This document shows, piece by piece, positions 1,041 through 27,471 of a DNA stretch of 64,000 nt. A model generated the notes under the pieces. It did no database searches. It was not told the origin of the DNA and saw only the letters and a program-made list of their open reading frames with translations. The translations under genes and the position numbers were made by a program. Within the stretch, counting starts at the first letter, position 1, and each line of letters starts with the position of its first letter. Source of the stretch: Terrimicrobium sacchariphilum (GTDB taxonomy: Bacteria; Verrucomicrobiota; Verrucomicrobiia; Chthoniobacterales; Terrimicrobiaceae); assembly GCF_001613545.1 (NCBI RefSeq), contig NZ_BDCO01000003.1:310001-374000 (forward strand), written 5' to 3'.

Positions 1041-1056
1041 ACGCATCTCGTTGCAT
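1041..1056. promoter_or_regulatory. Candidate LacI-family operator, copy 1
   Basis: ACGCATCTCGTTGCAT, which on the minus strand is ATGCAACGAGATGCGT. It matches the motif found six more times between 1.8 and 18.9 kb. It lies between the MFS gene and the end of the secreted-protein gene, so it should act on the MFS gene. Assignment to the LacI protein encoded at 17754-18806 is inference. Confidence 0.6.
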
Positions 1057-1826: not shown

Positions 1827-1867
1827 ACGCATGTCGTTGCAGAGAAAGTTTACGCAACGACATGCGT
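1827..1867. promoter_or_regulatory. Paired candidate LacI-family operators, copies 2 and 3
   Basis: Two head-to-head copies: ACGCATGTCGTTGCAG at 1827-1842 and ACGCAACGACATGCGT at 1852-1867. Their starts are 25 bp apart, about two and a half helical turns. Copy 3 is the best-formed copy in the window. The pair lies between divergent genes, 79 bp before the GH130 start, so it could control both directions. Confidence 0.65.
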
Positions 1868-4590: not shown

Positions 4591-5607
4591 ATGTCTCGTA
4601 CTCCAGTGACCCTTACACGTCTCTCCACCACACCGATTCTCGAACCCCGCCCCGATGTCCAGTGGGAGCGCGGAGCGGTGCTCAACAGTGCCGTGTGGGA
4701 GGAGAATGGCACGACCTCTCTCCTCTATCGAGCCATCGATCACGAGACGGGGTGGACGCAGGAAAATCCCGAGGGCGGACGCTATTATACGAGCGTCGGC
4801 CTCGCTACGAGCGCGGATGGCATTCACTTCGACCGTCGCCCGGAACCGATTATTCCTTTCGGCTTCCTCGGCGGAACCTCCGAGGCTCAGGACTGTCGCA
4901 TCGTGAAAATCGACGGCACCTATTACCTGACCTACTGCCTGTACGACCAGGACATCGGCCTGCCGAGCCCGGGATACTCGGTGTCGACAGATCTCATTCA
5001 CTGGGAGCATCGCGGGGAGCTCGTCCCGTTCGCCGAGTTTGGGTACAATAAAAACGCCACCCTGTTCCCGGAGAGAATCGGTGGCAGATATGCCCTGCTC
5101 CACCGGCCCGAGGCTGCTGCCTTCCGTCATCTGCCGAAGCAACAGTTTGACTGGCGCACCTGGAGCCGCGGGCCGCTGACGAAGGAAGCCGACCTGCCAG
5201 GCGTAACCCTTTCCTTTTCCGATGACCTGAAGCACTGGACCGACACGACAGTGGTGATCAAGACGCGGGAAAACTCATGGGACGACGTGAAGGTCGGGCC
5301 GGGAGCTCCGCCGATTCGCACCTCGCAGGGATGGCTGAACGTCTACCATGCGGTGGACTCCGCGCACACCTATCGTCTTGGCCTGGCACTTCATGACATC
5401 AATGATCCCCGCATAGTCCTGAAGCGGCAGGATCATTGGATCCTCCAGCCCGAGCTGGACTGGGAAAAACACGGCGACGTGGACGGAGCCATCTTCACCT
5501 GCGGCGCCCTGCTGCGCGAGGGAAACATCCTGCGTGTCTACTACGCCGGCGCGGATACCAAGATCGGTGTCGCCGAGGCCTGCGTGGAGGACTTTCTGAA
5601 AAGCTAA
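4591..5607 (+). CDS. GH130 family phosphorylase/hydrolase, second copy
   Basis: 338 residues, a different GH130 subgroup from the gene at 1946. Supporting segments are ERGAVLNSAVWEENG, the active-site region AQDCRIVKIDGTYYLTYC (the Asp there corresponds to the family acid), VKVGPGAPPIRTSQGWLNVYH and VYYAGADTKIGVAEA. GH130 members of this size act on beta-1,2- or beta-1,4-linked manno-oligosaccharides or on mannose-GlcNAc. The ATG at 4591 follows the upstream stop by 4 nt; an earlier in-frame start would overlap the FAD gene. Cytoplasmic, as no signal peptide is present. Confidence 0.8.
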   Translation: MSRTPVTLTRLSTTPILEPRPDVQWERGAVLNSAVWEENGTTSLLYRAIDHETGWTQENPEGGRYYTSVGLATSADGIHFDRRPEPIIPFGFLGGTSEAQDCRIVKIDGTYYLTYCLYDQDIGLPSPGYSVSTDLIHWEHRGELVPFAEFGYNKNATLFPERIGGRYALLHRPEAAAFRHLPKQQFDWRTWSRGPLTKEADLPGVTLSFSDDLKHWTDTTVVIKTRENSWDDVKVGPGAPPIRTSQGWLNVYHAVDSAHTYRLGLALHDINDPRIVLKRQDHWILQPELDWEKHGDVDGAIFTCGALLREGNILRVYYAGADTKIGVAEACVEDFLKS

Positions 5608-9564: not shown

Positions 9565-12500
9565 TCAGTTGGCTTTGAGCAAAACAGTACGGATGCCGAA
9601 CGGACGATGCCAGGCTATTGTCGCGACGGGGTCCTCCAGCAGGTTCACATCCCCGGCGAATGCGAGCGCGGACTTGGGCGTGACCGCCAGGGGCGATGCG
9701 CTGCCCGCCGCATCATAGAGACGTACGACGATCCCTTCGCCAGACTCGGCCACCTTGACTGTTTCGATGATGTGATCGGGGTGCGGCTCGGCGATCAGCG
9801 ATTCCGCAATCCGGGTCGCGCCCTCATGCGCCAGCAGCGGCGTGTTCAACTCGTAGGCCGGACGTACCACTGCTTCCACGGAGAAGCCGCTAACATGAGG
9901 CAGTAGCGAATACGTAAAGGTATGCACTCCGGCATCACCGCGCGGATCAGGATGTCCGCCACCCTTCAGGAGCGACAGGCGAATGCGGCTGCCGAGAACG
10001 GAAAGGCCGTATTTTCCATCATTGAGCAAAGCGACGCCGAAGGCGGATTCCGAAAGATCGGACCATTTGTGCTGACTGACCTCGAAGCGCGCGCGATCCT
10101 CGGCGAAATTGCGGTGAGTGCCGCGCTGGAGATGGCCAAACTGAATCTCGTGCCGGGCGTTCGGCGAGTGAACAGCCAGTTCAAACTCGACCCCGAGATA
10201 ACGGTGGGGCTCGGCCCAATCGACCACCGTCTCAAAGTCTACTTGCGCGGTGTGCGCGTGGACGACGATGTCCTGGGTGATCCGGGAACGTCGACCGAGC
10301 GTGATCGAGCGCCGCAGGCGGGCTTGCAACGGTCCGCAGGCCACGAGAGATAACTCGGCGGGCGAATCCAGCGGCGCGAGCTTGTGCTCGAGATCGGAAT
10401 CGATGTCCCAGTTGTCCCATTGAGCCGGGATGTCCTCGCCAAAGACCAGGGTATTGAGCGGGTTCTTGCCCTCCGTGCGCAGTTCGCGCCCGCTGGAGCG
10501 ATCCAGCCACGAGACGATGCGTCCGGCGTGATCAAATTTCAGGACGGCATGCGGAGTCTCCAGCGTATCATCGGCAAAGCGGAATGGTGGTGACTGATCC
10601 TCTTCCGGTAATCCGACCTCAAGGACGCGTGCTCCGAGCGGTGGGAGATCGATCCGGCCGAGAACACGGCGGCGCTCGCCCCATGGTGTTTCGACCATTT
10701 GTGAGGCGACACCAAGCGGGCAGGGGAGGTCTGCCGAGATCCATCCCGTACGGCGAGTCCAGCCCAGCGTATTATGAATGCTGATCGTCCCGGAGTTTTC
10801 GTCGGAAAGCGTACTGAGGAGTTCGCCTGCGTAGGCGCGACAGTCCGCAACCAACGAGGTGAGTTCGCGGATCGCCTGATCGTGGACGGCCGGAATGGAA
10901 GTTCCTGGCAGAATATCGTGGAATTGGTTCAGCAGGAGCACGCGCCAGAGCTCATCGAGACGCGCAGCATCGGGTTCCTGGCCGGCGAGGCTGGCTCGCG
11001 CTGCGCAGTAATCGAGATTGCGCAGGGCAAACTCCGCGGCGCGGACGAGGCGCTTGATGGCCGCTTGCTGGGTGAGCGTTCCGCGATGGCCTTCAAAGTA
11101 AAGCTCGCCCACATACAGCGGGGCGCGCGGGCTGTCATCCCGCAGATGCGTCATGAATTCGCTCACCGTAGTGTACTCGGCCCGGGGGCAACCTTCGAGA
11201 TCCTTCACCCGCCGCGCTAGCTCGAGCATTTCAAAATCCGGGCCGCCTCCGCCATCGCCGCGTCCGAAGGAAATGAGCCGCGCTTGGTTCACATCGGGGT
11301 GCCGTACGCAGTTCTCGGTCTTGCGAAAGTCCTTCGGTCCGGTGCCCGCGAGTTTGTTAATCAACGTCCCGGGGTCGGGTGCGCAATGAATGTCGTTGAA
11401 GTGCGTGAAAACGCGTGTGCCGTCGATACCCTCCCACCAGAAGGTGTCGTAGGGAAAGCTGTTGGTATCGTTCCAGGTCAGCTTGGTCGTGAGAAAGTAC
11501 TGGATACCGCAACCGGCGAGAATCTGCGGCAACGCGGCGGAATACCCAAAGGTGTCCGGCAGCCAGAACGTATCGGAGGTGTAGTTGAAATGCTTGCGGG
11601 TGAAGCGGCGTCCGACGAGGAACTGGCGGATCAAGGCCTCGCCCCCGGCGAGATTCACATCGGGCTCGATCCACACGCCGCCGTTGGGTTCCCAGCGACC
11701 TTCCGCGACGCGCTGCTTGATCCCCTCAAAGACATCGGGGTACCCCTCGCGCATGAAGTCTGCATGCAGTGCCGAGCTCTGGACGAAACGGTACTCCGGA
11801 TACTGCTCCATCAGCCGCAGGACATTGGAGTAGGTGCGGGCGCACTTGCGCTTCGCCTCCGCGACCGTCCAAAGCCAGGCGGTATCCATATGCGAGTGGC
11901 CGATCAAACCGGCGCGGGGAGCGACGTCCCCGTTGCGGCAAGCCAGCTCGGGCGCGAGGATTTCCCGGGCGCGGCGTACTCCTGCCCGCCAATCGTCCTC
12001 CAAAACCTCGCCCGGTTCTTCCCACAGGACGGCGTAAACTTCATCCAGCGCGGCCAGCAGGCGACCTTTGCGAAAGCTTCGGTCGGAGAGTGCCTCGGCC
12101 AGCGTGCGGATCGTGTGCAAATCGACGACAAAGTCCTTCACCTCCTCATCCCGCGTGGCGACATGCAGGCCCTTGAAGCACCTGATGAAAGGCGGACGGT
12201 AGGCATCCTGCGTGTGCACGGAATCCCCAGGGTGTGCGCCCACGATGGGATGACCGGCATAGGCTTCCAGCAGGATTTCGAAAACCTTTCCTGCACGAGG
12301 CGACTGCGCGATCATCAGAGCCCGGTGGTCGCCGCGCTGCCACTTGTAGTCTGCGTGGTTAAAGATCCCGCAGGCCTTGCCGTTGACAAAGAGCAGGCTT
12401 TCGCAGCCCCCGGTTTCAGCCACGAGATAGACCGGCCCGTCATAGTCGCGGTCGGCAGTCCATTCCGTGCGGAACCACGCGCTGCCACCTTCGCATCCCC

Positions 12501-12681
12501 AGGTCTGTCCTGCCTGATACGGGTTCCAGGTCTGTTCCCCGCCAGCCGCAGGCGGAGGAGTGAGATGGTCGGAGGTTTCGAAAAACGAGCCTTCGAGCTC
12601 ACGGGAGGGGCGATGAATCAGATTGCGATAGGTGGCTTCGATGCGGGCCAGCTTCGCGAGGGTTTGCGGCGAGGAGATCAC
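9565..12681 (-). CDS. GH38 alpha-mannosidase
   Basis: 1,038 residues, the usual size for bacterial GH38. An N-terminal beta-domain (about 40-170) precedes the catalytic barrel with GHSHMDTAWLW (261-271), whose His264 and Asp266 should bind zinc. FWLPDTFGYSAALPQI carries the nucleophile Asp376. The rest forms the beta-sandwich part of the family. It releases alpha-linked mannose. No signal peptide is seen, so probably cytoplasmic. The start is a GTG at 12681; no ATG precedes the conserved region and no clear ribosome binding site is visible, so the exact start is uncertain. Confidence 0.9.
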   Translation of the reverse strand: MISSPQTLAKLARIEATYRNLIHRPSRELEGSFFETSDHLTPPPAAGGEQTWNPYQAGQTWGCEGGSAWFRTEWTADRDYDGPVYLVAETGGCESLLFVNGKACGIFNHADYKWQRGDHRALMIAQSPRAGKVFEILLEAYAGHPIVGAHPGDSVHTQDAYRPPFIRCFKGLHVATRDEEVKDFVVDLHTIRTLAEALSDRSFRKGRLLAALDEVYAVLWEEPGEVLEDDWRAGVRRAREILAPELACRNGDVAPRAGLIGHSHMDTAWLWTVAEAKRKCARTYSNVLRLMEQYPEYRFVQSSALHADFMREGYPDVFEGIKQRVAEGRWEPNGGVWIEPDVNLAGGEALIRQFLVGRRFTRKHFNYTSDTFWLPDTFGYSAALPQILAGCGIQYFLTTKLTWNDTNSFPYDTFWWEGIDGTRVFTHFNDIHCAPDPGTLINKLAGTGPKDFRKTENCVRHPDVNQARLISFGRGDGGGGPDFEMLELARRVKDLEGCPRAEYTTVSEFMTHLRDDSPRAPLYVGELYFEGHRGTLTQQAAIKRLVRAAEFALRNLDYCAARASLAGQEPDAARLDELWRVLLLNQFHDILPGTSIPAVHDQAIRELTSLVADCRAYAGELLSTLSDENSGTISIHNTLGWTRRTGWISADLPCPLGVASQMVETPWGERRRVLGRIDLPPLGARVLEVGLPEEDQSPPFRFADDTLETPHAVLKFDHAGRIVSWLDRSSGRELRTEGKNPLNTLVFGEDIPAQWDNWDIDSDLEHKLAPLDSPAELSLVACGPLQARLRRSITLGRRSRITQDIVVHAHTAQVDFETVVDWAEPHRYLGVEFELAVHSPNARHEIQFGHLQRGTHRNFAEDRARFEVSQHKWSDLSESAFGVALLNDGKYGLSVLGSRIRLSLLKGGGHPDPRGDAGVHTFTYSLLPHVSGFSVEAVVRPAYELNTPLLAHEGATRIAESLIAEPHPDHIIETVKVAESGEGIVVRLYDAAGSASPLAVTPKSALAFAGDVNLLEDPVATIAWHRPFGIRTVLLKAN

Positions 12682-12822: not shown

Positions 12823-14196
12823 TTACGCGCGGCGGCGGCGATAGGCGATCATCGCGCCGGTCAACGCCATGCCGAGGATCATGGTGCCGATGGTGGACGG
12901 TTCGGGTACGGTCACTGCGAGGGTTCCCGAGGTGTAAAGCGACGAGGTATCCCAGGTCAGGCCGCCGCTGAGTGTCGGCAGGAGGATGTCCGCAAAGGTG
13001 CCGGAGATGGCGATATTCCCGCCCGAGATATTCTCAAACAGATGGAGGACATCCCCGTTGACCCAGGTGTAGGCGCCCTTGTCGGTTAGGCTCAGGGTGA
13101 TGTTGTTGGCGTTGAGGCTGGCGAGCTTCACGATGTCGTAGGTATTGCTCGCTCCGCCGACATCGAAGACAAAGGTGGATGCGGACGATGCGCTTACAGG
13201 TCCATTGAGGAGCAGCGTGCCGATGTTGCCCGTACCGGCCGCGCCTGCATTGAGCGTACCGGAGGAGCTGAAGGTGAAGCCTGTGGTGGAGGTGATTCTG
13301 CCGGTACCGGCCAGCGTACCGCCCGAGATCACATAGGCTCCAGCGCCGGTGTGGGTGCCGTTAACCGCCAGAGTGCCGCCGGAGACGGTCGTCACGCCAG
13401 TGTAGGTATTGGTTCCGGAGAGCGTGAGGGAATGCGCTCCGGCCTTGGTTAGCGAGAGAACCGGGTGATTGCCAGACGTACCATTGGAAATGGTACCCGA
13501 AAATGTTGAGTCAGTGCCGCCGCCGGGTCCATTGCTGGGGTCGATGGTCAGAGTGGGATCGAAGTTACCGCTGCCGTCTACTGTGATAGAGGACAGGGAC
13601 GAAGTTGACGAAATGCCTGCCACCGTTTGCCCAACCGATTTCAGGACCAGTGAGGCAGTGTCGCTACCGAAGATCACGGTCGTGTTCGTAGGCAACGCAT
13701 TGGCAGCTTTCGTAAACAGGGAGCCGGAGGCGATGGTCGTATTGCCCGTGTAGGTATTTGCACCGTTCAGGTTGAGAATGTCGTTCCCGGCTTTGGTCAA
13801 GCCATTGGAACCCGTGATTGTTGAGAATATGTTGCTGCTGCCACCGCCTGCTGCCGTGATGGTTCCATTGATGGTGATCGTGCCGCCAGTGATAGTATAG
13901 CCCTTGGTATTGAAGGTGAGGTTGTTCACCGTAATTGGCGTTCCCAAGGTAACAGTACCTGCTGTTCCGCCAAAGATTGCGCTGTCATTGTTAGCGTTGG
14001 TCCAAACGGAGTCCGTCGAACCGTTGCTCCAGAAGGAGCTCGTCGTATTCCAGGTGCCGCTGCCTCCTGCCGGGCTGGTGGGCACTCCGGTCGGATCCCA
14101 GGTGAGGTTGGCCGCTTGAGCGGAAGAGAAGAGCGCAGGCAGGACGACTGCCGCCGTGAGGGGGAGAATGCGTAGAGAGGATGGGAGCTTCGTCAT
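12823..14196 (-). CDS. Autotransporter-type beta-strand repeat protein with PEP-CTERM tail
   Basis: 457 residues. The signal peptide covers about 1-31 (PLTAAVVLPALFSSAQA). The body is made of Gly/Thr/Asn-rich beta-helix-like repeats, including the tell-tale units LTKAGNDILNLNGANTYTG and LTKAGAHSLTLSGTNTYTG. The tail is VPEPSTIGTMILGMALTGA followed by RRRR, a PEP-CTERM sorting signal read by an exosortase, which is not in this window. It is probably a surface or extracellular-matrix protein. The start is ATG at 14196, preceded by GGGAG at 4 nt. Its promoter region shares three operator-like sites with the divergent SGNH gene. Confidence 0.85.
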   Translation of the reverse strand: MTKLPSSLRILPLTAAVVLPALFSSAQAANLTWDPTGVPTSPAGGSGTWNTTSSFWSNGSTDSVWTNANNDSAIFGGTAGTVTLGTPITVNNLTFNTKGYTITGGTITINGTITAAGGGSSNIFSTITGSNGLTKAGNDILNLNGANTYTGNTTIASGSLFTKAANALPTNTTVIFGSDTASLVLKSVGQTVAGISSTSSLSSITVDGSGNFDPTLTIDPSNGPGGGTDSTFSGTISNGTSGNHPVLSLTKAGAHSLTLSGTNTYTGVTTVSGGTLAVNGTHTGAGAYVISGGTLAGTGRITSTTGFTFSSSGTLNAGAAGTGNIGTLLLNGPVSASSASTFVFDVGGASNTYDIVKLASLNANNITLSLTDKGAYTWVNGDVLHLFENISGGNIAISGTFADILLPTLSGGLTWDTSSLYTSGTLAVTVPEPSTIGTMILGMALTGAMIAYRRRRA

Positions 14197-14244
14197 ACTC
14201 CCACCGCTATTAACCCCATTCGTGACGCGAACTACCATTTTGTC

Positions 14245-14300
14245 ACGCATGACGTTGCGTAAATGCACGCAATATTGCACATCTCCGCAACGAGATGCGG
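14245..14300. promoter_or_regulatory. Candidate LacI-family operators, copies 4 and 5
   Basis: ACGCATGACGTTGCGT at 14245-14260 and CCGCAACGAGATGCGG at 14285-14300, 40 bp apart and head to head. Between them lies the short palindrome GCAATATTGC (14269-14278). They sit between divergent genes, 49 bp and 47 bp from the two start codons. Confidence 0.65.
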
Positions 14301-14346: not shown

Positions 14347-15678
14347 ATGGCCTCCTCACTCTTCTCCCTGCGCTGCGTGCTCATCGCGCTTGCCCTGCCT
14401 GCTGTCCTCACCGTCTCAAACCTTCATGCAGACCCGGAGAAGGGCTTTTTCCTGAAGAACGGAGATCGCGTCGTCTTCTACGGCGACAGCATCACGGATC
14501 AGCGGCTGTATACGAGTTTCGTTGAGACCTACGTTCTTACTCGTTTCCCGACGATGGACATCACTTTCGTCCACTCGGGATGGGGAGGGGATACCGTCGC
14601 CGGAGGCAAGACGAGCGGCAGCATCGATACCCGCCTGGAGCGCGACGTCTTCGTTTACAAGCCCACCGTCATGACCGTGATGCTCGGGATGAACGACGGA
14701 CGGTATCGCCCCTTTGACCAGCAGCTTTTCGACGCCTATCGCACGGGAATGGCTTCCATCGTGGAAAAGGCGAGGGAGCGTTTCCCTGACATTCGTATCA
14801 CGCTGCTTCGTCCCACTCCCTACGACGAAGTCACCCGCGGTCTCGATGGCAAGGTTGCGGGCGGCTACAATCCCGTCCTCATTCGCTTCGGTGATGCGGT
14901 GCAAAAGATCGCCGAGGATAACAACCAGACCGTCATCGACCTGAACGCCCCCATGGTCGCGCTGCTGGAAAAGGCAAAATCACTCGATGCTCCCGTTTCC
15001 GAGAAAATCATTCCCGACCACATCCACCCCCTCAAGGCAGGGCAGCTTGCGATGGCTTTCGAACTGCTTCGCGCCTGGAACGCTCCGTCTCTCGTCACCG
15101 ATGTCGGCATCGACGTGGCGAACCGCAAGTTTACCGCCGCAGCCAACACCAAAGCGACGGATCTCGCCATCGCGGATGGCAAGATTTCATGGACCCAGCT
15201 CGATGATGCCCTTCCCATGCCGGTGGACCGTGAGAACCCGGAAACGGCGCTCGTGCTCCGCTGCATCGACTTCGACGGTTTGCTCGATCAGCAGACGCTT
15301 CGCGTCACCGGTGCCGATGGTCCCGCTTACCGCCTCCTCATCGATGGCCAGACAATGGGCGAGTTCACCAGTGCCCAGCTTTCCGAGGGTATCAACCTCG
15401 CCAAGCTCCCCACTCCGATGATCGCCCAGGCGGAAAAGGTTCACGATCTGACCTTGAAGCGCACTGCGCTGGTTCAAACCCGCCGCAACACCTTCCAGGT
15501 TCCCTATGCCAATAGTGAAGAGCCGATCAAGGGCAACCTCGAGCGGCTTATGGGCTCGCTCGATGACGCCGCGGAGTCGGCGCGCTCCATCCAGCGCCAG
15601 ATGGCGGTTCCCGTTCCTCATCGCTACGAGCTAGTGCCTGTCTCCAGTCCCGCCCCGGAAAAGACCGCGGCCCGATAA
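14347..15678 (+). CDS. Secreted SGNH/GDSL-type hydrolase, paralogue
   Basis: 443 residues. The signal peptide is about 1-28 (CVLIALALPAVLTVSNLHA). Block I is VVFYGDSITDQRLYTSF, block II HSGWGGDTVAGG, block III MLGMNDGRYRPF and block V IIPDHIHPLKAGQLAMA. It shares overall plan and length with the gene at 5697, including the long C-terminal part, so the two probably arose by duplication and may act on different ester groups. The role as a glycan esterase is inference. Two operator-like sites lie directly upstream. Confidence 0.8.
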   Translation: MASSLFSLRCVLIALALPAVLTVSNLHADPEKGFFLKNGDRVVFYGDSITDQRLYTSFVETYVLTRFPTMDITFVHSGWGGDTVAGGKTSGSIDTRLERDVFVYKPTVMTVMLGMNDGRYRPFDQQLFDAYRTGMASIVEKARERFPDIRITLLRPTPYDEVTRGLDGKVAGGYNPVLIRFGDAVQKIAEDNNQTVIDLNAPMVALLEKAKSLDAPVSEKIIPDHIHPLKAGQLAMAFELLRAWNAPSLVTDVGIDVANRKFTAAANTKATDLAIADGKISWTQLDDALPMPVDRENPETALVLRCIDFDGLLDQQTLRVTGADGPAYRLLIDGQTMGEFTSAQLSEGINLAKLPTPMIAQAEKVHDLTLKRTALVQTRRNTFQVPYANSEEPIKGNLERLMGSLDDAAESARSIQRQMAVPVPHRYELVPVSSPAPEKTAAR

Positions 15679-15716: not shown

Positions 15717-15732
15717 ATGCAACGACATGCGT
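15717..15732. promoter_or_regulatory. Candidate LacI-family operator, copy 6
   Basis: ATGCAACGACATGCGT, 176 bp before the GH5 start and 38 bp after the SGNH stop. It matches the best copy at 15 of 16 positions. It would control the GH5 gene. Confidence 0.6.
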
Positions 15733-15907: not shown

Positions 15908-17065
15908 ATGATCCGATCCCATCTCAAGCGCCTCCTCCCTCGTTTCCTTGCCCTGCTTTGCCTTGCCGCCGCACCTGCCACGGCACAAACGAAGCCGGTT
16001 GCTGCACCAGTCGCTACACCTTCTCCCGCTGAAGACGCCATATGGCTGAAAGTAAAGGGCGATCAGATCGTTACCTCTCCGCTCAGCGAAGGGGGAGAAA
16101 AACCATTCATCCCGGTTGGGATCGGCTATTGCCGAGATGTCATCATCAAAGCCCAGGACGACGCGGTGATGAAGTTTTGCAAGGACCGGCACCTCAATAC
16201 GGTGAGGCTTTCCTTTTACCTTCTCAACTTCAATGGCAAGAAGGACCGGCCTATCGATGTCGAGGCCCACATCCGAGATTTCATCGATCCTGTCGTTGAG
16301 GCGGCACGCAGGCACAAGATGTATGTGATCCTGGATGATCACGAGTACCTGAGCGCGCCGATCGATGAAGCCACCGCTCGCGAGAAGCAGAACGCAAAGA
16401 TCTGGGATGAAGCCACCATCCAAAAGTGGATCGACGGATGGGTGGCGGTCGCCACGCACTACCGCGACAACCCTTATGTGCTCGGGTACGAACTGATGAA
16501 TGAGCCGCACGATATCACCCCGCAGGCCGCGCGAGACGCCTTGACCCGCTGCCTGAAAGCGATTCGTGAGGTGGACAAAAAGCACATCGTTCTCCTTGGA
16601 AATAACAACTGGTCCCACTCCCGTTCGATGGAAAAAACCTGGGGAGAAACTGCCTCTACCGTCGATGCGCCTTACAACAACGTCGTTTTTGCCTTCCACG
16701 ATTATCCCGAGGATGATCACCCGTGGAAGGTTGAAAAGAACATCACCGCGTTCCGGGATAAACATAATGTCCCCGTGCTTTGCACGGAATTCGGCGCCAC
16801 GCATTGGAACAAGAGCGAGACCGTATGCCGGGAATTTGAGACGGGCATGGTGACTGTCTTTGCCAAGGAGAACGTCGGCTGGATGATATGGGCGCTTGGC
16901 AAGCTCGAGGACAATCCCCGCAACTCCTACAATGAAGTGGACAAAGTCGGCATGGGCCCTCCGCGCCAGTATGATTCCTGCGCCTACAGCGACATCTGGA
17001 TCCCGGCGGCCCGCATCCTGGCCAGTCCATTTCCGGAGCCTGCCGGGGCAGCCGCAGCTAAATAG
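15908..17065 (+). CDS. Secreted GH5 family glycoside hydrolase
   Basis: 385 residues. Signal peptide about 1-26 (FLALLCLAAAPATA), then a Pro/Ala linker to about residue 42. The TIM barrel shows LNTVRLSFYL, the acid/base Glu199 in YELMNEPHD, the HDYPEDDHPW loop and the nucleophile Glu294 in VLCTEFGATHW. GH5 includes endo-mannanases and endo-glucanases; the surrounding mannose-specific genes favour a mannanase or mannosidase, but the subfamily cannot be fixed by eye. It would make the oligosaccharides that the cytoplasmic enzymes of the locus consume. Confidence 0.85.
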   Translation: MIRSHLKRLLPRFLALLCLAAAPATAQTKPVAAPVATPSPAEDAIWLKVKGDQIVTSPLSEGGEKPFIPVGIGYCRDVIIKAQDDAVMKFCKDRHLNTVRLSFYLLNFNGKKDRPIDVEAHIRDFIDPVVEAARRHKMYVILDDHEYLSAPIDEATAREKQNAKIWDEATIQKWIDGWVAVATHYRDNPYVLGYELMNEPHDITPQAARDALTRCLKAIREVDKKHIVLLGNNNWSHSRSMEKTWGETASTVDAPYNNVVFAFHDYPEDDHPWKVEKNITAFRDKHNVPVLCTEFGATHWNKSETVCREFETGMVTVFAKENVGWMIWALGKLEDNPRNSYNEVDKVGMGPPRQYDSCAYSDIWIPAARILASPFPEPAGAAAAK

Positions 17066-17123: not shown

Positions 17124-17648
17124 ATGAAAAAATATCGCGTATTGTTCCTTGTCCTGCTGCTGCCAATGATCGCGCGCTGCGAGGAGCCTATTGTTGAGTT
17201 GTTTCCACCGACCGTGACCTCAAAATACAAGGGAGGCTGCGGCACGTTTGGGAAGGCAAGCGTCGAGCCGCGGCAGGGTGAAGCACCGATTAATCTCACG
17301 GTCACCGCCTGGAAGTCTGGAATCATGTGGTGGTTCGCCAACCATACCCAGATACCTCGTGGAGCTGTCGAGTCTTGGGGGAACTATGCCATCCGGGTCG
17401 AGTTTCGAATGCTGGACAACGCCCAAAACGTCACGGTAAAGGCCTCCTGGAGAGGCGTGGCTGAGCCAGCGATATTCTCGGAGCAGACAATGGCCTCCGT
17501 GGATGTCGAGGCTAATGCCTGGACTGCGATCACCCTTCCTGCGCCGGACATTTCGGCTTGGGACGCTGATCGTATCAATGGGCTCGGTCTGGAGTTTCCT
17601 GAAGGGCATTACGAGATACGCAAAATCGATATCGTCCCGGCGCCCTGA
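17124..17648 (+). CDS. Small secreted protein, possibly carbohydrate-binding
   Basis: 174 residues. The N-terminus MKKYRVLFLVLLLPMIARC is a signal peptide or possibly a lipoprotein signal. The mature part is rich in beta-strands (IRVEFRMLDNAQNVTVKASW, INGLGLEFPEGHYEIRKIDI), a pattern like CBM-type beta-sandwiches that end with a strand reading out bound sugar. The ATG at 17124 is preferred because it begins the hydrophobic core; an in-frame ATG at 17097 would add nine residues. It follows the GH5 gene by 58 bp and is probably cotranscribed. The function is unproven. Confidence 0.6.
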   Translation: MKKYRVLFLVLLLPMIARCEEPIVELFPPTVTSKYKGGCGTFGKASVEPRQGEAPINLTVTAWKSGIMWWFANHTQIPRGAVESWGNYAIRVEFRMLDNAQNVTVKASWRGVAEPAIFSEQTMASVDVEANAWTAITLPAPDISAWDADRINGLGLEFPEGHYEIRKIDIVPAP

Positions 17649-17753: not shown

Positions 17754-18806
17754 ATGCCCTCGAATACCCCTACCCAGAAAGACATTGCTGAGGCCGCAAG
17801 AGTTTCCGGATCGACTGTCAGCCGAGCTTTGCGCAATGATCCCACCATTCCCTCGGAGACCCGCGAGAGAATCATGCGCGTGGCGCGGGATCTCGGCTAT
17901 CGCCCAAACCCATTCGTTAACGCGAACATGCTCAATGTTCGACGTCCCAATCGCAAACACACAAAAGCGATCCTGGCCTACATCACCCCGATTCCCCTCA
18001 ACGAATATTTCGCGATCGTTCCGCAGAGGGAAATCTCCTACAACGGCGCCTGCAAGCGGGCCGACGAACTCGGCTTTCAGGTCGATCCCGTGCCGATCAA
18101 GGAGAACGGCGTCTACCTGAGCAGCAGGCGGTGCACGGAGATCCTGCTGGCCCGGGGCGTTCAGGGGATCGTTTTTGCCATGTTTGAGAATCCCTATGTT
18201 CGCTTCCATCTGGACTGGGATCGTTTTGCCGTCGCCACCCACGATTTTCGCATGGTTCAGCCGCGCTTTTCCGAGGCTGGGTCGAACCACTATCTGAATA
18301 CCCAAAAGATCCTCCGCAACCTCAACCACCTCCGTTACAAACGAATCGGCCTGGCCATTCCTGCCCGGGCCGATCGATACACGCAGGGAGCCTTTAGCGC
18401 GGCGTTTTGCCTCTACCGGGACACTCAGCCGAAGGTTAATCAGATCGCGCGGTTCACCCCCAGCGCGCTGAAGGATTGGAACCGTGAAAATTTCCTCAGC
18501 TGGTACAAGAAGGCGAAACCGGATGCGATCATCTGCATCTCAGACGACATCCTGAGCTGGCTTCAGGACGCCGGAGTGAGTGTGCCTCAGGATGTCGGCC
18601 TGGCCAGTCTGGCCTGGGAGCGCGAAAAAGAGCCTGCCGGCTGGAGCGGGATATACCAGCAGCACGAAATGGTCGGAGCCGCAGCTGTCCAGCTCGTTGT
18701 CGATCAGCTGATGCTAAACGAGCGCGGAAAGCCCCGCTATCCCAAAACCATCCTCATCGACGGCGAATGGGTCCCCGGGAGTACTCTTTGCCAGCAGGGA
18801 CTCTGA
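17754..18806 (+). CDS. LacI-family transcriptional regulator
   Basis: 350 residues. The N-terminal helix-turn-helix reads DIAEAARVSGSTVSRALRND, followed by GYRPNPFVNANMLNVRR, the hinge region. The rest resembles the periplasmic-binding-protein-like effector domain (GVQGIVFAMFENPY, KRIGLAIPARADRYTQG, PDAIICISDDILSWLQ). It most likely binds a sugar and represses, or in this phylum sometimes activates, the mannan-type locus before it. The seven copies of RYGCAACGASATGCGT around 1-18.9 kb are the obvious candidate operators (inference). No copy is seen directly upstream of its own start. Confidence 0.9.
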   Translation: MPSNTPTQKDIAEAARVSGSTVSRALRNDPTIPSETRERIMRVARDLGYRPNPFVNANMLNVRRPNRKHTKAILAYITPIPLNEYFAIVPQREISYNGACKRADELGFQVDPVPIKENGVYLSSRRCTEILLARGVQGIVFAMFENPYVRFHLDWDRFAVATHDFRMVQPRFSEAGSNHYLNTQKILRNLNHLRYKRIGLAIPARADRYTQGAFSAAFCLYRDTQPKVNQIARFTPSALKDWNRENFLSWYKKAKPDAIICISDDILSWLQDAGVSVPQDVGLASLAWEREKEPAGWSGIYQQHEMVGAAAVQLVVDQLMLNERGKPRYPKTILIDGEWVPGSTLCQQGL

Positions 18807-18870
18807 ACGCCTTCTGCGAGTTCTCCCGTCGAACATTGCGTGGTAATCCAGCAGCCCGTGACCCTCTTTT

Positions 18871-18886
18871 ACGCAACGACATGCAT
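18871..18886. promoter_or_regulatory. Candidate LacI-family operator, copy 7
   Basis: ACGCAACGACATGCAT, 54 bp upstream of the vccB start codon and 65 bp after the LacI stop. The location suggests that the Verru_Chthon cassette is under the same regulator as the sugar genes. Confidence 0.6.
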
Positions 18887-18939
18887 AAACCGCCGGTTGT
18901 TAACCAGGATCGGGCGTATTTATTACGTATGAGACCCTC

Positions 18940-19413
18940 ATGAGAACACTCCTCCCCAACGCAATTCGCTCGCGCGCCTGCGGCTTTAGCCTGGTGGAAA
19001 TCGTGCTCGCCATCGGTATCACCTCGTTTGCCCTCATTGCAACGCTCGGCCTCCTTCCGGTGGGACTCAACAGCCTCCGCGAATCCAGCACGCAGACCGC
19101 CGTCGCCAATATCTCCCAGTATATCCGAGGAGAGCTTCAGCAGATATCATTTAACCCCCAAGCCTCCTTCAACGTTCAAAACCTGAACTCGGCGACATAT
19201 TACTTTACCAAGGATGGAGTGAAGACGGACGCCGGTAGCGGATACTATCAGGCCAAATTTGATCTGACCAATGGCTCCGTGGGAGGAAATACCTTTAACG
19301 CCACCTCGGCCCAAAATATCAAGGTGACGCTTTCCTATCCCGCGACAGCGGCAGCCGCCGCCCGAAAAACCTTCGTTTTTTCGCTGTTCGCCGCGCGGCA
19401 ATCGAACCAGTAG
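18940..19413 (+). CDS. vccB: Verru_Chthon cassette protein B (pilin-like)
   Basis: 157 residues. The prepilin-type leader ends at CGFSLVEIVLAIGITSFALI (residues about 14-33): a Gly before Phe for cleavage and Glu at +5, followed by a hydrophobic helix. The remainder is a short pseudopilin-like head (QYIRGELQQISFNPQASF). It matches the layout of the B component of the four-gene cassette known from Verrucomicrobium and Chthoniobacter. It is the first gene of a B-C-D-A operon. The processing enzyme is likely the prepilin peptidase at 53297. The function of the cassette is not established; a pseudopilus-like secretion or surface structure is a guess. Confidence 0.8.
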   Translation: MRTLLPNAIRSRACGFSLVEIVLAIGITSFALIATLGLLPVGLNSLRESSTQTAVANISQYIRGELQQISFNPQASFNVQNLNSATYYFTKDGVKTDAGSGYYQAKFDLTNGSVGGNTFNATSAQNIKVTLSYPATAAAAARKTFVFSLFAARQSNQ

Positions 19414-19429
19414 TTCTCCACCCTGCCGT

Positions 19430-20407
19430 ATGGCTACTGCACCATTTGCGCTGTCTTCTCGCAGCCGCTTCAGAAGGGCTTTCACCATTCTGGAGATGCT
19501 GGTGGCGACGACGGTGCTCGTTCTGCTCCTTACGCTGATCGCGAGCGTATTGAGCCAGACCACATCGACGATTCGGCAGTCGACCGCCCAGGCGGATGCG
19601 TTTACCGCGGCTCGTTCGGCCTTCGACCTTGTCACCCGTCATCTCGCGCAGGCCATCCTCAATCCCTATTGGGACTACGACAGCCCTACATCGCCCACTC
19701 GCTATTTGCGGCAGTCCGATCTGCATTTTGTTGTGCGTCAAAACACAAAGGATCCCAGCAGCGGTCAGGAGGTGTTCTTTCAGGCGCCCGATGGGTTTTC
19801 CTTATCACCATCCTATCAATCTGCATCTGGCCTCCTGAACGCCTGCGGATACCGTGTGGTCTATGGCAATGACGACGCCTTTCGGGCGACGTCGGCGTCT
19901 GCCCCGAGATGGCGCTATCGGCTCATGCAGAGCCTCCAGCCTGCCGAGAGTCTCCGGGTCTTTGATGATAAGACAGTCTCCAACCCAGCGTGGATACAGT
20001 CGGCCTTGACGACGGAACTTCCGGTGACTGAGAACATCATTGCGATGATTGTCTGGCCCCGCCTTTCCGCCGGGGATGATCCCACTGGAACGACTCTTTC
20101 CTCAGACTACCAGTACAACTCCCGCGAAAACGCCGCAGCCAAGCCGCAGCCCTCCACCGCCAACCAGCTGCCGCCCACGGTTCAGATAACTCTCATCGCC
20201 ATCAGCGAAGCCTCTGCCGCGCGCATCGACACGCGATCATCGTCTGCACCAACAGAAATCGAGAGCGCGCTGGCGGGGAAGTTTACCCAAGCTTCCCAGT
20301 TTCAGCACGATCTCGACGAAGTTGCGCAAAAGTTAACCGCCAAAAACATTGCCTTTCAGATTTTCACGCTCTCGGTCGTCATGAAGGAGTCGAAATGGAG
20401 CCCGTGA
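19430..20407 (+). CDS. vccC: Verru_Chthon cassette protein C (pilin-like)
   Basis: 325 residues. The prepilin-like segment RRAFTILEMLVATTVLVLLL (about 14-33) keeps the Glu at position +5 after an Ala-Phe cleavage site, an atypical Ala instead of Gly. The head domain is large and includes TRHLAQAILNPYWDYDSP and VTENIIAMIVWPRLSAGDD, resembling minor pseudopilins of the GspJ/GspK type. It starts 16 bp after vccB and its end overlaps vccD by 13 nt, so translation is probably coupled. Confidence 0.8.
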   Translation: MATAPFALSSRSRFRRAFTILEMLVATTVLVLLLTLIASVLSQTTSTIRQSTAQADAFTAARSAFDLVTRHLAQAILNPYWDYDSPTSPTRYLRQSDLHFVVRQNTKDPSSGQEVFFQAPDGFSLSPSYQSASGLLNACGYRVVYGNDDAFRATSASAPRWRYRLMQSLQPAESLRVFDDKTVSNPAWIQSALTTELPVTENIIAMIVWPRLSAGDDPTGTTLSSDYQYNSRENAAAKPQPSTANQLPPTVQITLIAISEASAARIDTRSSSAPTEIESALAGKFTQASQFQHDLDEVAQKLTAKNIAFQIFTLSVVMKESKWSP

Positions 20408-21009
20408 TTTTTCGCCCCCGCGCCTTTTCGATCGTCGAGCTCCTGGTCGTCATCGCCATCATTAGCATCCTCATGGCGCTCACCGTTCCAGCCGTCTCCT
20501 CGCTGATCGAGAATACAAACGTGACCCGCGGAGCCCAACTCGTGGAAAGCCAGATCCAACTCGCCCGCCAGCTCGCCTCCTCCAGGAATCGGCCCGTTGA
20601 GGTCCGTCTCATCAAGGTTCCCGCGCAATCCGCCACCGGGGTCAGTGCCATTCAACTCTGGCAGATGGACCCGCCGAGTGGCGCCAATGCCGCGCAGGCT
20701 CGCCCGCTGACACGCGCGGAAATGCTTCCGACGGCGATCTGCATTTCTGAAGACGCCACTGCGGCGTCCCGTCTTTTCGCCAAATGCGGCTTTACCAACT
20801 CGATCCCCTCCGGCTCGCCCCTTTCTGGCAGTTCCTACGCCGCCTTTCAGATCTTTCCCTCGGGCCTGCTCTCTCCCTACGTGGATATGCAGACGGCTTA
20901 CATGACCGTATTGCCGACGCGAAATGCCAAGGAGACATCGCTGCCCCGCAACTACGCGATCATCCAGATCAACCCCATGACAGGAACTCCCAGCACCTAC
21001 CGGCCATAA
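20395..21009 (+). CDS. vccD: Verru_Chthon cassette protein D (pilin-like)
   Basis: 204 residues. The leader is very short: RPRAFSIVELLVVIAIISIL (about 6-25) with Glu at +5, followed by MALTVPAVSSLIENTNVTRG, a GspH-like continuation. The head ends with YAIIQINPMTGTPSTYRP. It overlaps vccC at its start and its stop codon overlaps the vccA start by one base (TAATG), the pattern of a tightly coupled operon. Confidence 0.8.
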   Translation: MEPVIFRPRAFSIVELLVVIAIISILMALTVPAVSSLIENTNVTRGAQLVESQIQLARQLASSRNRPVEVRLIKVPAQSATGVSAIQLWQMDPPSGANAAQARPLTRAEMLPTAICISEDATAASRLFAKCGFTNSIPSGSPLSGSSYAAFQIFPSGLLSPYVDMQTAYMTVLPTRNAKETSLPRNYAIIQINPMTGTPSTYRP

Positions 21010-24000
21010 TGATCCTCCCGACATTAGCAAGATCCAGGCAACGCGGCGTGGCGTTGGTGATTGTGCTCGCCATGGTGGCTCTCATCGCCGCCCTTGCCAT
21101 CGGCTTTCTCAATCGCGCCGGGTCCAATCGCAGCGCAGCCGCAAGCTATGGCGCCACCGCGACCACCCGGCAGATCGCCGACAACACAGTCAATATCGTC
21201 CAGGGACAGATCAATCTCGCCACCCAGCTTCCTGCGGGTTCCGTGTGGGCGTCTCAGCCCGGCGCCATCCGCACCTTCAAGTCCGACGGCTCGCTCGACA
21301 CCATCTATCGGCTCTACTCGGCATCATCGTTGACTGCCTCCAACTACAACGCCCTGGCGACCGATGTTCCCTCTGCCAACTGGGCTTCTGCTCCCGCGAT
21401 TTGGGTGGACCTCAATGCCCCGGCAGTGCGCACCGGCACGTCCTCCCTAAGCTATCCCATTCTCGATCCGAGATCTCCGACAGGCTCCGGCCTCCTCAAC
21501 CTCGATGGTTTTGCCCTGACAAATCCGCCGGGCTCTTCCAGCAGTCAGCCTGTTCCCATGCCAGTGCGATGGCTTTATGTTCTCCGCAATGGCGAAATCA
21601 TCGCGCCCGACAATGGCGGCTCGGGACAAATAGCCACCTTTGCCAACTCCAACGTGAAGCCAAGCGCGGACAATCCCATCGTGGGACGCACTGCCTTCTG
21701 GACCGATGACGAAAGCTGCAAGATCAACGTCAATACTGCCGGTGATGGGACCTTCTGGGACACTCCCCATGTTGACGCCCCGGACGAACACAAACTGGCA
21801 AACAGCCAGCCCATGGCCCGGGAATTCAATCGCTATCCCGGTCACCCGGCCACCACTTCGCTCAAGGCAGTCTTTACGGCTCTGGGTGTCGATCTCGGGA
21901 CCTACCCCTCGGCCATGGGGCAGACATCGAATCTCTTCAAATTGCTTCCTCGCTACAATGACGACTACGGCTCCAAGCAAGGCACAGCTACAACGACGGC
22001 CTCCTCCAATCCCGTCACCGCGAAATCTGGTCGCTTTTATTCCGGTACGGGAGAGATGCTTTTCAGCCCCGCGCGTACCAGTTCGGGATTGACGCTTTCC
22101 CAGACCGAGGTGGGGAAGTTTTTCCTCACCGCCACCAGCCGCGCGCCAGAGCTGAATCTCTTCGGCCAGCCCCGCATTGCCACCTGGCCCGTCTCGGAAA
22201 ACTCCAGCGACAGCTATCGAACTCCCGTCGATCGTCTCATCGCCTTTGCCTCCACCATCAATGGCAAGCCGTATTATTTCACCCGTCTCAATCCCCGCAG
22301 CACCACTGTTGATATTTCCCTCAATCGTAATCAGGAGCTTCTGAACTATCTCGATCGCTCCACCCAGCGCAATGTACCCGGCGTCGGCAAAAGCTTCGTC
22401 GACAAATACGGGCAGGCTGAAACCCGGCAGATTCTCACCGAGATTTTCGACTACATCCGTTGCATGAACCTGAGGGATTCGACATTAAGCGAAACCTATC
22501 AATACGCTACCCGCTCGCCTAGCGCCGCCTCAAACGAAACCTACGGACTTGGCGAGGTGACGCCGAGCATTTCAACCAGCTGGGGTACGCAAGGTTTTGG
22601 ACGATTTTATCGCATTACCGAGGTGGCGCTTGTATTCGTCGCCGTGGGGGAGGGATCCAACGGCTCGACAAGCGCCACCCCGGTCCTTTCTAGCCAGGCA
22701 GGGACGGTGGGCTATACTGGATCCCTCCCCGGTTTCACCCCGGCAAACTCCACGCGGGCCGTTCAGGCCTTCCTGGTCATGAACTTCTTCGATCCCAATT
22801 TCGGATGGAGCAGTCACTACCCCAATGCGAACATTACCGTTTCGGGGCTCAATTCCTTTAAACTTAACAACCAATCGATGGCCATGCCGGGAAGTGCATC
22901 GATCCCGCTATTTTTTACGACGCCTCCCCTTCACTCGCGCGCCTACGGGGGGCCTCTCGACTGGCGGGTTCTTCTCCGCAAGTTCGGCCCCAATTCGCCG
23001 CCGAAATCGGGAGCCTATGCGGAGTTTCCCTTCTACAGCAAGATCCTTGAGATCCCAACAGGACCGGGTTCCATGGATTTCTCCGGCGGCAAGCTGACCA
23101 TCCAGCTCTACGACGAGAAATCGAATCTCGTTTCAACCTACGACATCGACTTTCCGAGCTACTCGACGCTGCCGATTCCATCATTGCCAGTTTTTCGGCA
23201 GTTTGGCGTTAACCTCAGTGACCTCAACGATCGGTTTGGGAAGGGCTCTGCCTTATCAAACAACTTCCCGACCACGCTTATTGATCCCGCTGATGTCGTC
23301 TTCGGTGTTGTACCCTCCAAAGCAAGCGGTGACTACCGTCTCCTGGCCAGAACCAACGTCCCATCGTCAGTGTTTGTCCGTCACCCATCCGCAGGAACCC
23401 AGGCCCAGGGTTTCGGCTTTGACACCCCGGTGCTGGAGTTTAGCGGCTCCATCCGTGGCACACTATACGATCCCGCTCTTCTCCAGAACCGGAAGCCCTT
23501 TGTCCCTGCCACCGTGCAGGGGGCATTCGTGGGTGGATCATCGAATATTCCGGGCGACTGGGATAATGGATTTGGAAGACGGCTCGATGGCCCCTTCATC
23601 AACAAACCGGATGAGGGAACAATCTATAATGCCGGTACAGAAGACCCGTATTTCAAAACGGACTACGGCGAAACCGCCATTGGAGCCTCGTTCTTTTCCG
23701 CCAATCGCCAGGTGCCATCGCCTGCGATGTTCGGCTCGCTCCCGACGGGGGTCCTGTCAATGAAACCCTGGCAGACCCTGCTTTTCCGCCCCGGGCCAAC
23801 AGGGCATCCCGGATCGGATGACCCCAGGGATCACTATCTGCTCGATCTCTTCTGGATGCCCGTCGCCGAACCCTACGCTATCAGCGAACCCTTCTCCACC
23901 GCAGGAAAGGTCAATATGAATTACCAGATCCTGCCCTTTACCTATATCACTCGCAACACCGCTCTCCGCGCCGTCCTCAGTCCCGAGAAGGTCGCTCAGA

Positions 24001-24530
24001 TCGGCAAGGTTTCCGGTGCCTACACCCGCGTAATTTCAGGCTCTGCGCGATCATCACTGAACCTCAATGACACGGACGGAACCCTGCGTCAGTTCAAAGA
24101 GCGTTTTTCACAAGGCGACATCTTCCGCTCCGCCACGGAAATCTGCGACATCTTCCTTGTCCCGTCCGGTTCATCGTGGACATCCGACTCTGCGGCGAGA
24201 ACGGCGTGGTACGGAGACAACTTCACCTACGTGGGTGACAACCTCCGCGAGCGTCCCTACGCCACGATCTACCCGCGAGTCACCACCAAGTCGAATACCT
24301 TCCGCGTCTACTACACAACTCAATCGCTGAACAATCGCTCCACCAACCCCGCCGTCTGGAATGAATCTCTCGGCGTCGTCACCGGCGAGTATCGCGGATC
24401 GACCACGATCGAGCGCTATCTCAACCCCGCCGATACCAATCTGCCGGACGCCGCGACCGATACCTCGAATCCCTCACTGGAAGGCTACTACCGCTGGAGG
24501 ATCGTCGAGCAAACAAGCTTCGCCCCCTGA
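21009..24530 (+). CDS. vccA: Verru_Chthon cassette protein A (very large protein)
   Basis: 1,173 residues. The N-terminus MILPTLARSRQRGVALVIVL is followed by one hydrophobic helix (to about residue 33) and RAGSNRSAAASYGATATTRQ, like the start of PilX/GspK-type minor pilins. The long remainder is rich in Ser, Pro and aromatic residues without a recognised domain; SCKINVNTAGDG resembles the calcium or zinc-bearing region of GspK-like proteins. It probably caps or forms a surface structure with B, C and D. The ATG at 21009 was chosen because it overlaps the vccD stop and begins just before the helix; in-frame starts further upstream lie inside vccD. Confidence 0.8.
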   Translation: MILPTLARSRQRGVALVIVLAMVALIAALAIGFLNRAGSNRSAAASYGATATTRQIADNTVNIVQGQINLATQLPAGSVWASQPGAIRTFKSDGSLDTIYRLYSASSLTASNYNALATDVPSANWASAPAIWVDLNAPAVRTGTSSLSYPILDPRSPTGSGLLNLDGFALTNPPGSSSSQPVPMPVRWLYVLRNGEIIAPDNGGSGQIATFANSNVKPSADNPIVGRTAFWTDDESCKINVNTAGDGTFWDTPHVDAPDEHKLANSQPMAREFNRYPGHPATTSLKAVFTALGVDLGTYPSAMGQTSNLFKLLPRYNDDYGSKQGTATTTASSNPVTAKSGRFYSGTGEMLFSPARTSSGLTLSQTEVGKFFLTATSRAPELNLFGQPRIATWPVSENSSDSYRTPVDRLIAFASTINGKPYYFTRLNPRSTTVDISLNRNQELLNYLDRSTQRNVPGVGKSFVDKYGQAETRQILTEIFDYIRCMNLRDSTLSETYQYATRSPSAASNETYGLGEVTPSISTSWGTQGFGRFYRITEVALVFVAVGEGSNGSTSATPVLSSQAGTVGYTGSLPGFTPANSTRAVQAFLVMNFFDPNFGWSSHYPNANITVSGLNSFKLNNQSMAMPGSASIPLFFTTPPLHSRAYGGPLDWRVLLRKFGPNSPPKSGAYAEFPFYSKILEIPTGPGSMDFSGGKLTIQLYDEKSNLVSTYDIDFPSYSTLPIPSLPVFRQFGVNLSDLNDRFGKGSALSNNFPTTLIDPADVVFGVVPSKASGDYRLLARTNVPSSVFVRHPSAGTQAQGFGFDTPVLEFSGSIRGTLYDPALLQNRKPFVPATVQGAFVGGSSNIPGDWDNGFGRRLDGPFINKPDEGTIYNAGTEDPYFKTDYGETAIGASFFSANRQVPSPAMFGSLPTGVLSMKPWQTLLFRPGPTGHPGSDDPRDHYLLDLFWMPVAEPYAISEPFSTAGKVNMNYQILPFTYITRNTALRAVLSPEKVAQIGKVSGAYTRVISGSARSSLNLNDTDGTLRQFKERFSQGDIFRSATEICDIFLVPSGSSWTSDSAARTAWYGDNFTYVGDNLRERPYATIYPRVTTKSNTFRVYYTTQSLNNRSTNPAVWNESLGVVTGEYRGSTTIERYLNPADTNLPDAATDTSNPSLEGYYRWRIVEQTSFAP

Positions 24531-26701: not shown

Positions 26702-26703
26702 GT

Positions 26704-27449: not shown

Positions 27450-27471
27450 GGTTTATGGGAGGCTTTGTACA

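Follow-up and report, generated by a model that had tools for sequence, protein, structure and literature searches.

A Verru_Chthon minor pilin cassette in a mannan-type locus of Terrimicrobium sacchariphilum: regulatory context and likely structural identity

Background

The tip of the type II secretion system (T2SS) is made up of four minor prepilin-type proteins, GspH-GspI-GspJ-GspK (XcpU-V-W-X), of which GspK, some 300 residues long, is marked by the lack of glutamate at position +5 of the prepilin site. In type IVa pili the tip minor pilins are named FimU-PilV-PilW-PilX, and the accompanying PilY1 is large. According to PMC7541494, the priming or tip complex of these pili is formed by minor pilins together with PilY1. 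PilC of Streptococcus sanguinis is presented in PMC9934059 as a modular lectin minor pilin which is modelled at the pilus tip and binds glycans, and a PulG-like pseudopilin of Verruconatronum alginivorum is reported as over-expressed on alginate, with 67 homologous proteins in one genome (PMC13274419). Here we analyze the four-gene cassette vccB-vccC-vccD-vccA of the Verru_Chthon type (TIGR02598, TIGR02599, TIGR02596 and TIGR02600), found in a stretch of 64,000 nucleotides of Terrimicrobium sacchariphilum DNA (contig NZ_BDCO01000003.1, positions 310,001 to 374,000; G000:C3:310001-374000 in our numbering). This whole stretch is called the window, and coordinates are those of the window unless a locus is named.

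Like the T2SS tip, the cassette encodes four minor prepilin-type proteins, VccC and VccA having a GspJ-like and a GspK-like predicted fold, respectively. It differs in the size of VccA (1,173 residues) and in its genes, which are multi-copy, stand next to local sugar regulators and are separate from the T2SS cluster. With the tip complex of type IVa pili it would share the combination of minor pilins and a large head, with the difference that head and GspK/PilX-like base would be a single polypeptide in VccA; no match to PilY1 was seen. VccA is similar to PilC in being a pilin-type protein with an extra region, but family scans revealed no lectin family in it. V. alginivorum belongs to the same phylum, and its pseudopilin increases on a polysaccharide, yet this is a PulG-like pilin and not a four-gene cassette. 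The first-pass annotation of this DNA had stated that the cassette has no established function. This holds: the NCBIfam descriptions of the Verru_Chthon models state none, and no paper on the cassette was found in a literature search, subscription journals being mostly outside its coverage. The search found nothing relevant joining Verrucomicrobiota, type II secretion and LacI, and nothing joining pilins or prepilins, polysaccharide utilization loci and Verrucomicrobiota. The link to sugar regulons and the fold assignment come from the present analysis.

Results

The cassette shares an operator motif with genes of the mannan-type locus

The genome scanned measures 4,751,807 bases in 3 contigs, and genes were called by an in-house gene caller. 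According to Pfam and NCBIfam profile scans, the first 24.5 kb of the window are a mannan-type locus, in which genes of the GH130, FAD oxidoreductase, GH130, GDSL, GH3, GH38, PATR/PEP-CTERM, GDSL, GH5 and LacI types (GH, glycoside hydrolase) are followed by vccB, vccC, vccD and vccA. The four vcc genes are all on the forward strand: vccB at 18940..19413 (PilV/GspI-like minor pilin), vccC at 19430..20407 (GspJ/XcpW-type minor pilin), vccD at 20395..21009 (GspH-like minor pilin) and vccA at 21009..24530 (giant GspK-type protein), the ATG of the latter at 21009 overlapping the vccD stop. The four NCBIfam models matched side by side, with scores of 76 bits for VccB (cut-off 51), 104 for VccD (cut-off 70) and 934 for VccA (cut-off 332); the VccC match is full-length, and at 252 bits slightly below the cut-off of 256.5. 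The B-C-D-A cassette annotated at 18940-24530 is therefore present, membership by score applying to A, B and D. Directly upstream, on the same strand, lies a gene encoding a LacI-type regulator (17754..18806), in which both the PF00356 helix-turn-helix domain and the PF13377 sensor were identified.

The site ACGCAACGACATGCAT (18871..18886, forward strand), contained in TTTACGCAACGACATGCATAAA (18868-18889), ends 54 bp before the vccB ATG. An operator-like site in this place, downstream of the LacI gene of a glycan locus, had been noted in the first-pass annotation. Its position and setting are confirmed by the coordinates and by Pfam; the symmetry of the site is not above chance, as 117 out of 500 shuffled intergenic sequences reach it. 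Palindromicity alone was consequently dropped as proof of an operator, and recurrence of the motif was used instead. Allowing up to 3 mismatches, the pattern TTTAYGCAN6TGCRTAAA has 4 matches in the window against 0.20 expected (none of 100 shuffles reaches 4), and the 18-mer TACGCAACGACATGCGTA has 5 against 0.01 (0 of 100 shuffles). The 16-mer ACGCAACGACATGCGT is found 7 times, at 1041, 1827, 1852, 14245, 14285, 15717 and 18871, while 300 letter-shuffled motifs average 0.51 matches and never reach 7. No match is wholly intragenic, though the intergenic share of the first 25 kb is 12% only. The 18-mer is matched 6 times in the entire genome, 5 times within one 17-kb stretch of the window. The reversed pattern, used as a control, is also matched 5 times genome-wide, so single distant matches carry no meaning and it is the clustering that counts.

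A site without mismatches (1852..1867, forward strand) is located 79 bp before the first GH130 gene (beta-1,4-mannooligosaccharide phosphorylase family; 1946..3154, forward strand), and the same divergent intergenic stretch hosts a site with 2 mismatches on the reverse strand (1827..1842). A second pair is formed by the sites at 14245..14260 (reverse strand, 1 mismatch), 87 bp before the gene of a GDSL-type esterase (14347..15678, forward strand), and at 14285..14300 (forward strand, 3 mismatches), between the PATR/PEP-CTERM and GDSL genes. The gene of the PATR repeat protein with a PEP-CTERM motif, called at 12823..14250 on the reverse strand, has its start next to this pair. The 14245 site overlaps the first bases of the gene as called from 14250, and would fall inside it if the true start were the GTG at 14280. 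Closely spaced pairs such as 1827/1852 and 14245/14285 are common in LacI-type control regions. One more site (15717..15732, forward strand, 1 mismatch) is found 176 bp before the GH5 glycoside hydrolase gene (15908..17065, forward strand). A possible further operator at 1041..1056 (reverse strand, 2 mismatches) is intergenic, with no called gene closely downstream. The repetition of one operator before several genes of the mannan locus (GH130, GDSL/PATR, GH5 and vccB) is the pattern of a LacI regulon, to which the window cassette very probably belongs.

Two LacI genes reside in this part of the window. Judging from sequence comparisons, the likely reader of the operator is the product of 17754-18806, rather than that of 25661-26701, because of the similarity to another locus of the same genome, L039 (L-numbers are labels of compared loci, most of them vccA cassette loci). 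L039 encodes the nearest paralog of the window VccA (79% identical) and the LacI protein closest to that of the window among 9 others compared (161/340 identical), and carries a related site, CGCAACGAGGTGCAC, before its cassette.

Sugar regulators near the cassettes of the genus

The genome has 13 VccA genes above the NCBIfam cut-off, plus about 10 weaker relatives. LacI genes were found within 5 kb of 8 of the 13 cassettes (circular-shift mean 1.75, p 0.0008), and 4 other cassettes have nearby regulators in which the same sensor (Peripla_BP_3) is fused to a GntR or AraC domain. Regulators of the LacI or Peripla_BP_3 type are altogether found within 5 kb of 12/13 cassettes (mean 2.5), a number reached in 0 of 10,000 circular shifts. 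Response regulators, monitored as a control (53 of 70 genes used), are missing within 5 kb of all 13. The 91 genes located within 5 kb of these cassettes include 12 Peripla_BP_3, 10 LacI, 3 alginate lyase, 3 polysaccharide deacetylase and 3 sodium:solute symporter matches and several GH families. None of these ranks among the top 25 families of a random set (13 regions, 127 genes), where GFO/IDH/MocA and the carbohydrate-binding CBM_4_9 do appear. The Pfam tallies compared are the 25 commonest of 87 families near cassettes and of 169 families in the random set.

The same link was found in two congeners, where 10/13 (2.5 expected) and 8/11 (2.3 expected) cassettes have such a regulator within 5 kb, 42 of 43 and 48 of 50 LacI genes having been used and the weakest rows left out. 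VccA copies number 13, 13 and 11 in the three species. Of these 37 proteins, 34 fall into 19 ortholog groups, 11 of which comprise two or three proteins; the groups being common to species, the three genomes are not independent. Counted by group, at least one member has a LacI- or Peripla_BP_3-type regulator within 5 kb in 17/19. L073, L083 and L089 were outside the grouping, as the gene caller gave no VccA there; the first two have no regulator within 5 kb, L089 has one at 2.1 kb.

Several of these loci also carry sites shared between the cassette and a further gene. The perfect palindrome ATCACATCCGGATGTGAT is found unchanged in the orthologous L034 and L072 loci of two species, with one copy 59 bp upstream of the cassette and another 32 bp upstream of the gene which follows the cassette; a GntR-Peripla_BP_3 regulator lies near the L034 cassette. 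In L070, AAGTTATCGTGATAACTT precedes the cassette by 91 bp, and a copy with two changes precedes the LacI gene by 38 bp. In L041/L077, AAATCACATGTTTGATAT lies 25 bp upstream of the cassette and 44 bp upstream of its divergent neighbour. A site similar to TATTTTATGCAAAATA precedes cassette and regulator gene alike in L040, and is weaker in L076, where the cassette-side copy falls within a called gene. The motifs differ among loci, as expected if each locus answers its own regulator. The 34 genus loci were also scanned automatically for palindromic 18-mers which lie upstream of the cassette and recur in the same locus. Counting both strands, this gave 18 matches, where about 5.4 were expected on the basis of other loci; those in L031, L038, L042 and L084, and one in L034, may be due to chance.

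The ten weaker-scoring copies of the genome (L043-L052) make up a second cassette type, in which the A protein is below the TIGR02600 cut-off. L052, scanned for small pilins, has the order D-B-C-A. A protein of 212-247 residues follows in 8/10 of them, and the two such proteins scanned have no NCBIfam or Pfam match. The neighbours of these cassettes also include GntR-Peripla_BP_3 and GH38 genes, and a regulator is found within 8 kb of 6/10 (p 0.02).

The four proteins

VccB, VccC and VccD have prepilin-type N-termini with prepilin-peptidase sites (G/FSLVE, A/FTILE and A/FSIVE, respectively) and glutamate at +5; VccA has a prepilin-type N-terminus as well, lacking this glutamate. The distinction is kept in relatives, where glutamate is found at +5 in 63/63 VccC rows, and in none of the 73 VccA rows with a residue at this position (74 rows in all). 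A loosely defined prepilin motif with glutamate was found in 66/66 B, 67/68 C and 64/64 D proteins. By sequence, VccB weakly matches PilV/prepilin-dependent models, VccD weakly matches GspH, its best T2SS model, and residues 11-87 of VccA match the GspK model (E 2e-5).

The predicted structure of VccC (predicted local distance difference test, pLDDT, 85 in VccA and 92 in VccC; predicted template modelling score, pTM, 0.88 and 0.85, respectively) aligns with ten GspJ/XcpW/EpsJ or TTHA1219 entries at Z 9.6-11.5, the next row being at 4.6. That of VccA aligns with Escherichia coli GspK (3ci0_K) at Z 7.5 over 259/280 residues, the next row being at Z 4.1. As the GspK-aligned residues are spread over positions 42-1173 of the VccA model, about 900 residues would be insertions. 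Residues 541-840 of VccA are on average the least conserved, and strand-rich in the model; the flanks are more conserved. Searching the VccA profile and the VccC sequence against solved structures gave nothing useful. On the models, VccC is a predicted GspJ-type minor pilin and VccA a predicted GspK with some 900 additional residues, which agrees with the earlier suggestion that this 1,173-residue protein begins like a minor pseudopilin of the tip. The cassette likely encodes GspI/J/H/K-type minor pilins with a giant K.

Filament machinery is encoded elsewhere

PF00437 assembly or retraction ATPases have 8 matches in the genome, and 8 in each congener. The L171 locus of the same genome holds a T2SS-type cluster, in which GspG is above its cut-off, GspK (304 residues), GspM, GspD, GspE and GspF are best matches below their cut-offs, and the H-I-J positions are taken by three further small proteins, none of them with a match. 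The T2SS found there is apparently complete. An early idea that the genome lacks a canonical GspK was dropped, as the PF03934 marker had missed the GspK found later. No machinery genes were detected among the scanned neighbours of the window cassette, the interval 17124-17648 having been scanned only within the Pfam tally. This absence, together with the T2SS elsewhere, leads to the reading of the cassettes as accessory tips on a shared engine; the window cassette, not being encoded with T2SS machinery, is classed as working like a T2SS tip, not as being one. In another locus of the genome (L173:6802-8566) four small pilin-like open reading frames (ORFs) stand directly before an ORF of 761 residues which overlaps an assembly-ATPase match, and this is possibly another type IV filament.

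Distribution beyond the genus

From relatives, 80 loci were fetched, 7 of which were cut off and left out, and 73 used; regulators were detected with hidden Markov models built from proteins of the T. sacchariphilum genome. A LacI- or GntR-Peripla_BP_3-type regulator is present in the fetched stretch in 27/73 loci, a figure with no per-genome background; for rough comparison, one is also present in 3 of 13 random 20-kb regions from the T. sacchariphilum genome. Without the 10 loci from the two congeners, the count is 20/63. No such regulator was found in the fetched stretches of Verrucomicrobium sp. BvORR034/BvORR106 (0/10 loci) and Chthoniobacter flavus Ellin428 (0/2 loci), and the sugar-regulator link hence looks lineage-specific, not universal.

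Any VccA at E<=1e-60 was found in 12/23 relatives, and at least 3 of 144 genomes of the phylum hold one at E<=1e-80 (at most 4 candidates scored per genome). The order of the cassette genes varies among the 73 loci, BCDA (21), ABCD (18) and BCAD (16) being the most frequent, followed by DBCA (6), A alone (5), BCA (4), CAD (2) and ABC (1). In 8/73 relative loci (L126, L130, L135, L145, L146, L154, L158 and L166) a giant PATR ORF of 1,049-2,482 residues precedes vccA on the same strand, at a distance of up to 0.6 kb, which suggests a partner surface protein.

Discussion

The reading we favour, with a confidence somewhat better than even, is that vccBCDA encodes a sugar-induced accessory tip complex which serves a common engine of the type II secretion or type IV pilus kind. 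It rests directly on gene families, shared operators, regulator enrichment and predicted folds; from these we infer that this LacI reads this operator, that a tip is assembled, that the engine is shared, and what the final function is. The four products would be an accessory set of minor (pseudo)pilins of the GspI-GspJ-GspH-GspK kind, forming a priming tip complex with VccA as the giant head. This complex would sit on a filament made by machinery encoded elsewhere, either the T2SS or a system of the further assembly-type ATPases. By binding a locus-specific operator, also placed before mannan genes, the neighbouring LacI protein would repress synthesis of the cassette unless the cognate sugar is present. 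The tip would then help glycan use, either holding the polymer at the cell surface, as PilY1/PilC-type tip adhesins do, or engaging enzymes of the locus for export, as the GspHIJK tip does. The first-pass annotation had suggested a part for the pilin-like assembly in glycan capture or enzyme secretion; this is partly supported, by the locus-specific operator common to cassette and sugar genes beside a LacI gene, and by the GspK-like predicted fold of VccA. Extended to the whole genome, the same scheme gives a plug-in system of 13 or more sugar-switched tip kits. Each kit would have an operator and a giant GspK head of its own, and would be mounted on a shared filament engine according to the glycan available; in Verrucomicrobiota the kits would play the part that SusCD-type outer-membrane pairs have in Bacteroidetes. 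This extension is tentative.

Several results weigh against the tip-complex reading. At the protein level, the Z of 7.5 between the VccA model and GspK is below 8 and middling by the aligner's own note; Foldseek gave no PDB match at E<=0.001 for the VccA or VccC model; VccA and the GspK profiles of the same genome align along the N-terminal helix only (E 0.0019, probability 14%), and profile comparison of VccC with the protein in the GspJ position of the same genome gave no match. At the regulatory level, the site related to the window operator occurs once in the L039 locus, and is accordingly not shared there. The automatic palindrome scan found a shared 18-mer in 11/34 genus loci and none in 23, so that shared operators are established for a minority of cassettes, and it missed the site of the window itself owing to its 18-mer and symmetry limits. 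Among the ten weaker-scoring cassettes LacI is found within 5 kb in 0/10, and a LacI- or Peripla_BP_3-type regulator in 4/10 (1.9 expected, p 0.11). The association of cassette copies with sugar regulators in other genomes, by which the first-pass annotation was to be judged, held within the genus and is not general outside it, where a regulator lies within 5 kb in 19/63 loci. The cassette itself is not always complete: B, C or D were not detected near vccA in 5/73 relative loci, nor directly upstream of vccA in L035. L074 and L085 likewise have a vccA without B, C and D directly upstream, and in L035 vccA is followed by a GH106 rhamnosidase gene.

Two rivals give the tip a narrower task. Cassettes may be substrate-specific T2SS tips, each replacing or supplementing the housekeeping GspHIJK to let the one T2SS export the enzymes of its own locus, with the giant VccA as a cargo-recognition head and not a glycan binder. 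The tip complex of the T2SS is described as critical for substrate recognition in PMC6211770, one T2SS-type cluster was seen in the genome against 13 cassettes, and these stand among hydrolase and lyase genes; a head this large, however, may not fit the T2SS secretin, and we regard this solution as possible, with some doubt. To a similar degree tentative is the view that cassettes provide glycan-capturing type IV pilus tips, VccA being an adhesin head of PilY1 size fused to a PilX/GspK base which keeps the polymer near the cell. The less conserved, strand-rich region at about 541-840, set between more conserved flanks, would suit such a head, and precedents are found in the lectin-bearing minor pilin of S. 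sanguinis (PMC9934059) and in the dextran-binding pili-like fibres of Planctomycetes described in PMC5394234. In VccA, however, no Pfam family was found at E<=0.01, and weak structure matches at Z 2-3, two of them to beta-sandwich parts of glycosidases, prove nothing.

The two remaining rivals loosen the bond with sugars. If the cassette served export or anchoring of giant PATR/PEP-CTERM proteins, the sugar link would be secondary. The giant PATR ORFs close to vccA in 8/73 relative loci and the PATR/PEP-CTERM gene starting at the operator pair of the window speak for this, but PATR is present anywhere in the fetched stretch of only 20/73 relatives, and the link within the T. sacchariphilum genome is weak (4/13 cassettes within 6 kb against 1.8 expected, p 0.10; 7/13 within 10 kb against 2.4, p 0.009). 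The PATR association was for this reason set aside as the main explanation, and we consider it unlikely. Cassettes could finally be passengers, which spread among catabolic loci without a part in glycan use, the regulator link reflecting hitchhiking. Their uneven copy number, from 13, 13 and 11 in the genus to 12/23 relatives and at least 3/144 phylum genomes, and the variable gene order would fit. This is nevertheless quite improbable, as the window, L034/L072, L070 and L041/L077 have sites shared with other genes at 25-91 bp upstream of the first gene of the cassette, such sites are kept between species in two of these locus sets, and 34 VccA proteins of the genus fall into 19 groups, 11 with two or three proteins.

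The Verru_Chthon cassette gains a likely structural identity and a regulatory context, that of locus-specific sugar regulons, and its role becomes in this way testable, apparently in a cultured type strain. Should the tip-complex reading be confirmed, it would link the breakdown of polymers by soil Verrucomicrobiota to a surface or export apparatus dedicated to it, and would reveal a way in which a single secretion or pilus engine can swap its tip by diet.

Other genes of the window

The mannan-type locus further comprises the second GH130 gene (4606..5607, forward strand) and, on the reverse strand, the GH3 gene (7034..9526) and the GH38 gene of the alpha-mannosidase family (9565..12681). Directly after the cassette, another regulator-pilin-hydrolase grouping is found at 25661-30837. 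The second LacI gene (25661-26701, reverse strand) is divergent from the gene of a GspG-like DUF1559 pilin (26808-27449), and this is followed by a large ORF (27322-30837) featuring a weak GH5-like stretch.

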